From Clostridia bacterium DTU084 (GTDB taxonomy: Bacteria > Bacillota > DTU084), in contig LFTB01000135.1 of the NCBI GenBank assembly GCA_001512905.1, positions 1 to 33,677 of the forward strand: a stretch of 33,677 nt of DNA, read 5' to 3'. Positions within the stretch are counted from its first letter, which is position 1. Every line of letters starts with the position of its first letter. Below are positions 22,975 through 27,835 of this stretch, one piece after another. The notes under the pieces are model-generated. The model was not told where the DNA came from. It was given only the letters and a program-made list of their open reading frames with translations, and ran no database searches. Both the position numbers and the translations under genes were made by a program.

Positions 22975-23008
22975 AAAAAAGGCGGGTAGGCATCGAAACC
23001 TACCCGCC
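22975..23008 (-). terminator. Riboswitch-controlled intrinsic terminator before purB
   Basis: On the minus strand GGCGGGTAGG (23008-22999) pairs perfectly with CCTACCCGCC (22990-22981) around an 8-base loop and runs straight into a TTTTTT tract, 17-20 bases before the purB ATG. Its 5' arm overlaps the 3' end of the aptamer core, the usual design for ligand-controlled attenuation. Confidence 0.92.
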
Positions 23009-23108
23009 CGGGCTTTTATCCCTCTACGGTGTAACATTCCTATATGGAATGCCTGTGCCACTTGGTCCAGACCTTCCCCAAGGAAGCGGAACCCTAGGCA
23101 CACTTTCA
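23005..23108 (-). ncRNA. ykkC-family riboswitch aptamer, probably PRPP type (subtype 2b)
   Basis: On the minus strand the leader has the ykkC landmarks in order: CTAGGGTTCCG (23097-23087), a small hairpin, GGTCTGGACC, a variable stem with ATTCC/GGAAT, then ACACCG and AGGGATAAAAGCCCGGG (23023-23007). ykkC RNAs sense guanidine, ppGpp, PRPP or nucleotide diphosphates by subtype. Those in front of purine synthesis operons are known to bind PRPP and switch genes on, which is the inference made here from context. No guanine aptamer is present in the leader, unlike the known PRPP-guanine tandem arrangement. Subtype needs a covariance-model check. Confidence 0.85.
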
Positions 23109-24838: not shown

Positions 24839-25882
24839 TTATGTGCTTACTGATTTCAGCTCCGCTTGAGGTGGGAAACTTAAGTTGGCTAGCTCAGCCA
24901 AAGCAGCTTCTAATTCTTCGCTGCTGACTGTAGCTGTGCCCAGCTTCCGCACAACAAGTCCTGCTGCAAGGTTCGCTAAAACTGCTGCTTCAAAATAGCT
25001 GGCCCCAGCAGCAAGGGCTAAAGTTAAGGTGCCGATGACTGTATCCCCTGCGCCTGTGACGTCGAAGACCTGGGTGGGGTTGAGGGCTGGAAGGTGCCAG
25101 CTTTGGCCGTCTGCAAGCTTGAGGGTCATCCCGTCCTCGCCCCGGGTAATGATCACAGCCTCGCAGTTGAGCTTTGAGAGAAGCTGTCCTGCAGCTTCAA
25201 CGATCTCATCGTCCCCTGTGAGATCTCTGCCCAAAGCCCCTCTTGCCTCTTCAAGGTTCGGGGTGACTATGCTAGCACCCTTGTAGGTGAGGATCTGATG
25301 CCTCGAGTCCACAGCCACTGGCAGCTGGTATTGTCTAGCAAGAGCTAAAGCTTGGCGCTTGACCTGGTCTGTCATTACCCCTAAATTATAATCTGAGATG
25401 AGAAGGGCATCTGCCTCGGGCAGGAGCTTTGCCAATCGCCTTAAAATTTGAACCTCAATCTCTTTGGGTAAAGGATCTTGAGTGTATTTGTCGATCCGGA
25501 CCAGCTGCTGCTTTACATCCTGCCTTCCTCCTGCCAGGATCCTGGTCTTTACAGTCGTGGGCCTTGCCGGACAAACAAGGACATTGCCTTGGCCGATACC
25601 TCGCTTTTTGAGGGCAAAGCGCAGCTGCTTGCCTACCTCATCTTCCCCCACTACCCCAACAAGCTCCACTTTTCCTCCCAGGCTCACTATGTTGTTGGCA
25701 GTATTTGTGGCCCCTCCCAAAGCCACATAACGCTCTTGCCAGTTGAGGATCAAAACAGGGGCTTCCCGGGAAATGCGCTCTGGTTGGCCTAAAATATACT
25801 CATCAGCTACCAGATCTCCCAAAACTACAACCCGCCTGCCAGCAAAATGCGAAAGAAAACCCTGGCATCTTTTGATCAGCAT
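24839..25882 (-). CDS. rfaE1: D-glycero-beta-D-manno-heptose-7-phosphate kinase (PfkB family)
   Basis: The enzyme phosphorylates heptose 7-phosphate at C1 in the ADP-heptose pathway. The PfkB/ribokinase fold shows VVVLGDLVADEYILGQPERI followed by SREAPV, the form specific to HldE/RfaE kinase domains. Next come GGATNTANNI, SDYNLG and the C-terminal DVTGAGDTVIGTL with the catalytic Asp and anion hole. ATG 25882 gives 347 residues, overlaps the gmhB stop by one base (TAATG) and has GGAAGGGAG upstream; a 13-codon longer frame lacks support. This is the stand-alone kinase: no fused nucleotidyltransferase domain follows, so a separate one must exist elsewhere if the pathway is complete. Confidence 0.88.
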   Translation of the reverse strand: MLIKRCQGFLSHFAGRRVVVLGDLVADEYILGQPERISREAPVLILNWQERYVALGGATNTANNIVSLGGKVELVGVVGEDEVGKQLRFALKKRGIGQGNVLVCPARPTTVKTRILAGGRQDVKQQLVRIDKYTQDPLPKEIEVQILRRLAKLLPEADALLISDYNLGVMTDQVKRQALALARQYQLPVAVDSRHQILTYKGASIVTPNLEEARGALGRDLTGDDEIVEAAGQLLSKLNCEAVIITRGEDGMTLKLADGQSWHLPALNPTQVFDVTGAGDTVIGTLTLALAAGASYFEAAVLANLAAGLVVRKLGTATVSSEELEAALAELANLSFPPQAELKSVST

Positions 25883-26469
25883 TACGCTCCCTTCCTTTGC
25901 CGCCTTTGGGTTAAAATCCAATCCACTGCCCCATTGAGATCAGGGGCAATGAAGTCAGGCTGAGTTTGCCAGTTTTTGCGCTGATAGATATATTCGCCCT
26001 TGCCGTAGCCTGTGAGTACCAGGATTCCCTTTGCTCCCAGCCGCATGCCTGTTATGGGATCTGTGATTTTATCTCCCACCATGAAGCTCCTGGACAGATC
26101 TATACTGAACTTTTCAGCGGCTTCAAGGAGCATCCCGCCGGCAGGCTTGCGGCAATTGCAGCTTTTCCTGTAAGGGGGAGGGCCCACTTGCGGGTGGTGG
26201 GGGCAGTAGTAGATGGCGTCTAAATGCGCCCCCTCTTGTGCCAAAAGCTCTTCCAGCCGCCTATGTACCTGGCCCACCAGCTCCTCTGGGAAATACCCCC
26301 TGGCCACCCCTGCCTGGTTGGTTGCCAGAATCACTAAAATTCCTGCACGGTTCAGCCTGCTGATGGCGGAAGCCGCACCAGGTATGAGCTTCAAGCGATC
26401 CAGGTGGTTGACATATCCAACCTCTTCTGTTACTGTCCCGTCCCGGTCCAAAAACACTGCTTCTCTCAC
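25882..26469 (-). CDS. gmhB: D-glycero-D-manno-heptose 1,7-bisphosphate phosphatase, GmhB-like HAD hydrolase
   Basis: GmhB removes the 7-phosphate from heptose 1,7-bisphosphate, the step after the kinase encoded downstream. The 195-residue HAD enzyme has the catalytic FLDRDGTV near residue 6, ATNQAGVARGYF (motif II region), the zinc-binding set CPHH and CNCRKPAGG, and GDKITDP (motif IV). Start is GTG 26469 with GGAG 5 bases upstream; the N-terminus MREAVFLDRDG is right for the family. That GGAG overlaps one arm of the inverted-repeat element at 26477-26681, so translation may be controlled by RNA folding. Confidence 0.92.
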   Translation of the reverse strand: MREAVFLDRDGTVTEEVGYVNHLDRLKLIPGAASAISRLNRAGILVILATNQAGVARGYFPEELVGQVHRRLEELLAQEGAHLDAIYYCPHHPQVGPPPYRKSCNCRKPAGGMLLEAAEKFSIDLSRSFMVGDKITDPITGMRLGAKGILVLTGYGKGEYIYQRKNWQTQPDFIAPDLNGAVDWILTQRRQRKGA

Positions 26470-26476
26470 TTTTGCT

Positions 26477-26681
26477 CCGTTACAGAAAGCTCATCATACT
26501 CTGTAAAATCTTTAGAAAGCTTTATCTTGTTCTGCGTCCGCTTTCAGGATCTACCTGATTGCGGACTCTCAAAACTCCAAAGGCATATTGCCTGCTGAGC
26601 GATCCGGTTTTCGCTGAGGGAAGATGGCTGTATATCCTTGAACAAGAAATGCTGCCTTTGAGCTAGCGGTTTCTGTAACGG
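26477..26681 (-). ncRNA. Candidate structured leader RNA or MITE-like element upstream of gmhB
   Basis: The 205-base element is bounded by a perfect 12-base inverted repeat, CCGTTACAGAAA at 26477-26488 and its reverse complement at 26670-26681. Inside are further perfect stems: CAAAGGCA (26578-26585) with TGCCTTTG (26653-26660), AGCGA (26598-26602) with TCGCT (26611-26615), and GTCCGC (26536-26541) with GCGGAC (26561-26566) enclosing CAGG/CCTG. Two competing local hairpins exist: TTACAGA (26480-26486) with TCTGTAA (26500-26506), and AGGCA/TGCCT at 26581-26593. Closing the 12-base stem would pair two Gs of the gmhB ribosome binding site. I do not recognise the class; strand is assigned from the gmhB context. 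A repetitive element is the main alternative. No target-site duplication is obvious. Confidence 0.5.
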
Positions 26682-26751
26682 GGTTCACCTCTTTCCAGTT
26701 GGTTCTATTAGAAAATATCTCTGCAGCTCCCCCAGGCTTGTTTTAAACAGC

Positions 26752-26791
26752 AAAGGGATTTTGGTGGCTATCAGCTGCCAGAATCCCCTTT
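26752..26791 (-). terminator. Probable terminator hairpin after the UPF0104 gene
   Basis: AAAGGGATTTTGGTGGC (26752-26768) can pair, with small mismatches, with GCTGCCAGAATCCCCTTT (26774-26791). The hairpin includes the stop codon of the membrane protein gene. Its minus-strand T-run is poor, so some read-through into gmhB is possible. Confidence 0.5.
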
Positions 26792-27835
26792 GACGTCCCA
26801 ATCCCCTTCCAGTTTATGCCGCTCCAGCCAGCCGTTTTTCAGGGCATAAACTAAGGAAATCGCGCCTGAGATCAAGCTCAAGTAATACGTAATCAGCCGC
26901 CAGGACATTACGTAAATCCCCAAAATGCCGCCGGGAACAACCCCCCTGAAAAAATAGGCGAAACTCAGCTCAGCGCCGCCGCTGGCACCTGGGGTGGGGA
27001 AAAAGGGCTGGATAAAATTGAGGATGAGCTGTGCCACCATGGTCTGAACCAGGTCGAATTTAACATTCAGCCCCACGAGGAGAACAGGCGCGATGGCCAG
27101 GTACAGTCCCCAATAGGCGAAAGTGAAAAAAAAGGACCACCACAAAGCTGAACGCTGCTTTTTCGCAAGCAGGACCATGGCTTCGCGGTAGCGCTGTACT
27201 TCCTCAGTAACCCGCTTGGCCCACCTGTCCAGGCGCCTTCTGCGATCCAGAAAGCGCAAAATCCTGGTCTTCCCTAAATTAATCAACCACTTCCCCACAA
27301 ACTCGGGTTTGAGAATTAGATATAGAAGAAAGGTGCAGACTGCAAGGATGGCAAAACCTAGAATGCCCAAGGTCAGGGGTTGGATTTTCAGCCGACTGCG
27401 CCAAATAATCAAAAGCAGCGGCGCCACTATGATGTAAAAGAGAATGGTCAGAAAGGAGTCCACGACGCTTGCAGCCACTGTGTTGCCAAAATTGACCCCC
27501 TGCCGGTAGATCATGTAGATCTGAAGGGGCAGGCCTCCGCCTGTGGTTGGAGTGACCTGGGAGATAAAGCAGGAGGACAGGAAAATGTTCACAAGCCGCT
27601 TGAAGGGGACCCTCTCTCCCAAGGCGGCCAGCAGGATTTTCAGCCTCACTACCCTGGCAAACCAGGCACCCACCACCAGCAGCGCTGCCAACGTAAAATA
27701 GGAAGGGCGAATTAACTTGAGGCCCTCCCAATCCAACTCGTGTCTTGTCAGGGCAAGCACCAGCAAGACAGAAACAGCGCCCGAGAGCACGGAGATCAAA
27801 AGGCCGCGCTTTAAGGCTTTTGCAGACAGCTTCAT
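26771..27835 (-). CDS. UPF0104 / lysylphosphatidylglycerol-synthase-type membrane protein
   Basis: The 354-residue integral membrane protein has about eight hydrophobic segments, beginning at roughly residues 12-28 and 45-60. It carries the family stretch SQVTPTTGGGLPLQIYMIYR near residue 95, and PFFPTPGASGGAELSFAYFF in the C-terminal third. These glycine-rich 'P..GG' motifs define the YbhN/AglD/MprF-TM (flippase-like) family, implicated in moving lipids or lipid-linked sugars. It overlaps the glycosyltransferase gene before it by 4 bases (ATGA), which supports a role in handling a glycolipid made by that enzyme. The charged C-terminal tail is cytoplasmic by prediction. Confidence 0.85.
   Translation of the reverse strand: MKLSAKALKRGLLISVLSGAVSVLLVLALTRHELDWEGLKLIRPSYFTLAALLVVGAWFARVVRLKILLAALGERVPFKRLVNIFLSSCFISQVTPTTGGGLPLQIYMIYRQGVNFGNTVAASVVDSFLTILFYIIVAPLLLIIWRSRLKIQPLTLGILGFAILAVCTFLLYLILKPEFVGKWLINLGKTRILRFLDRRRRLDRWAKRVTEEVQRYREAMVLLAKKQRSALWWSFFFTFAYWGLYLAIAPVLLVGLNVKFDLVQTMVAQLILNFIQPFFPTPGASGGAELSFAYFFRGVVPGGILGIYVMSWRLITYYLSLISGAISLVYALKNGWLERHKLEGDWDVKGDSGS

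Follow-up and report, generated by a model that had tools for sequence, protein, structure and literature searches.

MITEs and palindromic intergenic repeats of the ERIC, Correia and BOX types are short, gene-free sequences with terminal inverted repeats that fold on both strands. In T4 gene 60 and in byp-type bypassing, an insert is kept in the mRNA and is passed during elongation, inside the coding sequence. T4 genes 38 and 25 have split ribosome-binding sites, in which the Shine–Dalgarno sequence (SD) lies too far from the AUG and an intervening RNA stem reduces the spacing to a functional value, from 22 to 5 nt and from 27 to 11 nt, respectively (PMC3014915).

We analysed a 33,677 nt stretch of DNA from Clostridia bacterium DTU084 (hereafter, the window), in which a 205 nt insert precedes gmhB. 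We propose, at a probability of about 0.5, that this insert is one of two hairpin-ended copies lying between an SD and a start codon, where the stem gives a bridged, split ribosome-binding site; the other copy precedes hfq. The likeness to the T4 genes lies in the shortening stem and, for gene 25, in an arrangement confined to close relatives, as is the case for the gmhB and hfq inserts (PMC3014915). The T4 stems are short, whereas the two inserts have branched interiors, separate the SD from the start by 75 and 216 nt, and carry the same stem sequence at two unrelated genes. Split-site function was shown in T4, whereas for the gmhB and hfq inserts we infer it. Like MITEs, the inserts are short, have no gene inside, end in terminal inverted repeats, occupy unrelated sites and are missing in relatives; unlike MITEs, both sit in an SD–start gap, there are two copies with unlike interiors, and no target duplication or same-ended parent transposon was seen. 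The likeness to gene 60 and byp is that an insert retained in the mRNA would be passed over with the help of its fold, with the difference that the gmhB and hfq inserts would be passed at initiation.

The features of the gmhB locus are collected in Table 1. All of the pairings that the earlier note had described for the 205-base element are present. The outer stem is a perfect 12-bp inverted repeat (CCGTTACAGAAA/TTTCTGTAACGG), and two 8-bp stems lie within it (TCTTGTTC/GAACAAGA and CAAAGGCA/TGCCTTTG). These two stems cross, and must therefore form a pseudoknot or exclude one another; a local hairpin of 26578–26585 with 26589–26593 is favoured over the crossing pairing in the minimum free energy (MFE) structure. 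Local alternative pairings are TTACAGA/TCTGTAA (26480–26486/26500–26506) and AGGCA/TGCCT (26581–26593).

Table 1. Features of the insert and of the gmhB start region (window coordinates)
Feature	Position	Strand	Basis
Hairpin-ended insert, 205 nt	26477..26681	(-)	z-scores; missing in UBA5473 relative; ends same as hfq copy
Outer stem, 5' arm CCGTTACAGAAA	26670..26681	(-)	inverted-repeat listing; pairing probability
Outer stem, 3' arm TTTCTGTAACGG; supplies the GG that opens the local GGAG	26477..26488	(-)	sequence, pairing
Inner stem arm, partner 26640–26647	26525..26532	(-)	inverted-repeat listing
Inner stem arm, partner 26525–26532	26640..26647	(-)	inverted-repeat listing
Arm CAAAGGCA (+ strand letters); alternatives 26653–26660 or, partly, local 26589–26593	26578..26585	(-)	
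Partner of 26578–26585 in the crossing pairing	26653..26660	(-)	inverted-repeat listing
Apical hairpin, 6 + 5 bp with internal loop (GTCCGC..GCGGAC plus TCAGG/CCTGA)	26536..26566	(-)	MFE and centroid, both strands
gmhB, HAD-family heptose bisphosphate phosphatase	25882..26469	(-)	Pfam HAD-hydrolase matches; GmhB homologues
gmhB start GTG	26467..26469	(-)	sole standard in-frame start after preceding stop; N terminus agrees with UBA5473 homologue
Upstream SD of gmhB, AAAGAGGTGA, just upstream of the insert in the transcript	26685..26694	(-)	sequence; GAGGTGAAY common to hfq copy
Local GGAG, possible second SD, half inside the outer stem	26475..26478	(-)	sequence; unpaired probability

The order of elements at the gmhB start is AAAGAGGTGA-ACC-insert (205 nt)-AGCAAAA-GTG, so that GAGGTG and the start codon are 216 nt apart in the linear sequence and 11 nt apart with the stem folded out. 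A second candidate site, the local GGAG, lies 5 nt from the GTG, and its two Gs are paired once the stem forms. The earlier note had correctly seen that the GG of this GGAG (26478–26475, minus strand) falls within the outer stem, on its 3' arm, and had missed the upstream SD (26694–26685). As that SD is present, the stem need not switch gmhB off, and may place this upstream site 11 nt from the GTG. gmhB may possess two alternative SDs, one usable per fold, with neither fold clearly an off state. Because the local GGAG is usable, gmhB need not depend on the bridge.

GAGGTGA is found upstream of 3.9 % of scored genes and GAGGTGAA upstream of 1.7 %. Despite its rarity, GAGGTGAA precedes both inserts, and is either carried by the insert or preferred by it as a target. 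The nearest relative has AGAGGAGGAACA at the equivalent place before gmhB, which, in a sample of two, fits a native SD.

The sole other inverted pair of the 12-nt arms (at most one mismatch each) in the whole host assembly was found at C30:13284–13349, on a different contig. This second insert is 68 nt long with a full 15-bp stem (L110 2284–2351) and lies between intact miaA and hfq genes, in the order AAGGAGGTGA-AT-insert (68 nt)-CATC-ATG. The distance from GAGGTG to the start is 75 nt in the linear sequence and 7 nt with the stem folded out. The hfq ATG is the sole standard in-frame start after the preceding stop and agrees with homologous N termini; no other good SD was found near it (GGGCATCATG). 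The outer stem of the hfq insert has a pairing probability near 1, and the SD and the ATG are predicted to be partly paired to each other or to the flanks (unpaired probabilities of 0.24 and 0.36, respectively). Both inserts share GAGGTGAAYCCCGTTAYAGAAA at the left end and TTTCTGTAACGG at the right, and the extended SD GAGGTGAAY is common to the two loci. Between these ends, similarity was not significant whichever way the interiors were oriented (p 0.04–0.3). Since the arms of the two copies are identical, they point to common descent or recent spread, and not to covariation of a conserved RNA.

The nearest relative belongs to the UBA5473 lineage of the same family, and its GmhB is 77 % identical. 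There, the flippase gene lies directly against gmhB without an insert, with AGAGGAGG and the ATG 10 nt apart, and hfq has an ordinary start region with ordinary SD spacing, likewise without an insert. The gmhB and hfq sites are thus both empty in this one relative, at positions that have diverged from those of the host. At 26751–26792 of the window, an imperfect hairpin (CAAAGGGGATTCTGG...CCAAAATCCCTTTG) extends across the stop codon of the flippase gene; the length of the flippase–gmhB gap, which has no counterpart in the relative, is explained by this hairpin and the insert combined.

The same ends at two unrelated genes, combined with empty sites in the relative, indicate a mobile, MITE-like origin of the inserts, which we consider probable on these sequence comparisons. 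Copies at unrelated sites were what the earlier note had named as speaking against its reading, and the hfq locus supplies one, although there are only two copies and target duplications were not found: the flanks of the two inserts have no common direct repeat. Some transposon families leave no such duplication. A search of the 87 % complete assembly for arms with at most one mismatch revealed no autonomous parent with matching ends, and no transposase was found.

The insert folds strongly. With short flanks, its MFE z-score was -4.0 on the minus (gmhB) strand and -4.8 on the plus strand (200 dinucleotide shuffles), and among 270 stretches of 205 nt sampled across the window on both strands, the insert was the most extreme, with a z-score of -4.9 on each strand. 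When the 301-nt intergenic region was shuffled 1000 times, 4 shuffles contained a perfect inverted repeat of 12 nt or more, and 31 contained three perfect ones of 8 nt or more; the 8-bp stems by themselves are mildly unusual, not striking. The insert had no Rfam match at gathering score, and allowing E up to 10 gave a best chance hit of E 2.2; the hfq locus was also without a match. The description of a strongly folded, unclassified element directly before gmhB is therefore upheld (z about -4 to -4.9; no Rfam family). As the fold is about equally strong on both strands and under DNA parameters, fold strength alone does not distinguish functional RNA from a palindromic DNA sequence. No match to a sigma-70-type promoter was found at 26400–26900.

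The earlier note had read the competing stems as a switching RNA, and a ligand-sensing switch for gmhB-hldE-type genes would agree with the strong fold, with the crossing and alternative pairings, and with the place before a sugar-phosphate operon. However, the balance between states expected of a switch is not predicted. With 371 nt of sequence modelled, 10 of the 12 outer-stem pairs form with a probability of 0.97–1.0, the structure with the local TTACAGA/TCTGTAA hairpin imposed is 5.4 kcal/mol less stable, and the mean unpaired probability of CGGAGC is 0.37. The modelled pairings are mutually exclusive on paper, yet unbalanced by those 5.4 kcal/mol, a gap that a ligand could in principle shift. 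Moreover, the gmhB of the relative manages without the element, the same stem precedes hfq, no Rfam family matches and no homologues were found that would show a conserved aptamer. We consider a ligand switch improbable, and the insert resembles a bridged spacer more closely than it does a switch that senses a metabolite. The broader proposal of translational control of gmhB survives in a different form, as an influence of the insert on translation, while the ligand switch gained no support.

The split-site reading draws on the anatomy of the two loci, their common ends and the empty sites in the relative, together with the predicted stem. If, as we infer, the insert is transcribed, the stem, of 12 bp at gmhB and 15 bp at hfq, would fold it out within the mRNA. 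The start codon would then lie 11 nt (gmhB) or 7 nt (hfq) from the upstream SD (AAAGAGGUGA and AAGGAGGUGA, respectively). Ribosomes would initiate across the base of the stem, and the interior of the insert would be mostly a passenger.

The inserts could also be plain palindromic repeats or MITE remnants that came to lie near two start codons by chance, in which case gmhB would use its local GGAG, hfq would be translated more weakly, and the fold would have no role. Common ends at unrelated genes, the absence of both copies from the relative and the equal folding of the two strands all suit such an origin. Chance placement accords less well with the position of both copies in the same interval of a few nucleotides, with a strong SD on one side and the start on the other, in the SD-first orientation, or with the want of another good SD at hfq. 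Neither target-site duplications nor further copies were found. We regard this explanation as unlikely, though deserving of serious weight. Hfq autoregulation is known in other bacteria, and an RNA-binding protein, perhaps Hfq acting on its own mRNA, might recognize the SD and stem and repress or activate both gmhB and hfq. The SD and stem are exactly the conserved part of the inserts and the interiors differ, as this explanation would predict; on the other hand, a duplex stem offers little for sequence-specific recognition, no known operator was matched, and there are only two sites, both missing in the relative. Such protein control is doubtful. Least probable, and by our estimate very much so, is an artefact of assembly or binning, or a decayed coding sequence. 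The host assembly is metagenome-derived, in 144 contigs, and 44 nt of the insert weakly match coding DNA in the relative (E 0.002), but the second copy stands on another contig between intact genes, the short coding matches fall in unrelated genes, and no long open frame passes through the insert. A captured gene fragment was rejected, as none of the six frames holds a long open frame and a weak match to a gamma-lyase-like gene in the relative was judged to be chance.

Searches beyond the two loci yielded few candidates. A scan for an SD, a stem of at least 11 bp with at most one G–U pair and a start codon covered 1.38 of 1.86 Mb (74 % of the assembly) and recovered both inserts together with two other hits, a terminator-like hairpin (L262) and an arrangement lying within an open frame (L240); a control with the motif reversed gave no hits in the same 1.38 Mb. 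Another SD–stem hit (L251) was discarded as a further case as it sits inside a membrane-protein gene, and an inverted pair on contig C19 (CTGTTACAGACA) was likewise rejected as a copy since it sits inside a gene. Comparison of the insert DNA with its own genome and 60 relatives gave only short coding matches, in unrelated genes. Some long inverted repeat was present near the start in 4 of 79 other gmhB loci, none with the same arm. Among 399 genomes of the phylum, viral contigs, plasmids and phages, nothing resembled the insert except stretches of TnpB coding DNA, whose likeness is probably due to chance; genomes beyond the UBA5473 relative share only the phylum with the host, so missing homologues there say little. 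The motif matches with at most one mismatch in two of these genomes (G365 and G258) are TnpB coding DNA, which (L149, L150, L151) contains GAAGGAGGTGAAgCCCGTTAcAGAAAAAC, identical to the left end of the hfq insert at 27 of 29 nt. A search that had no positive control saw no kin of these TnpB genes in the host or in the UBA5473 relative, and the match, though unexplained, is probably chance.

An intergenic self-comparison of the same genome also revealed other, unrelated repeated stretches (L231 320–457/938–1197; L208 11250–11909 and L236 5495–6316), with 85–95 % identity over 56–96 nt. Elsewhere in the window, an Rfam Guanidine-I match of 74 bits at 23003–23108 (minus strand), followed by a terminator-like hairpin, lies directly upstream of a purine operon (purB, purC, purQ, purL, purF, purM, purN, purH, purD). 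This context suggests a PRPP-sensing relative of the aptamer (ykkC-type; PMC5912903) rather than one for guanidine.

A stronger version of the split-site reading leads us to speculate that a mobile element specifically enters the gap between SD and start, and is rendered harmless by its own terminal stem. We advance this idea of an initiation-bypassed element only tentatively, and think it unlikely; if true, the element would be as silent for translation as an intron is after splicing. Should the stem bridge the two halves of the site, ribosomes would initiate over folded inserts of 68 nt in a central regulator gene (hfq) and 205 nt in an outer-membrane sugar gene (gmhB), lengths well beyond those of the T4 cases. 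Bridging would show how inserted DNA survives at the point where a gene is most sensitive, and would serve as a warning to start-site prediction programs that a distant SD may be the real one.
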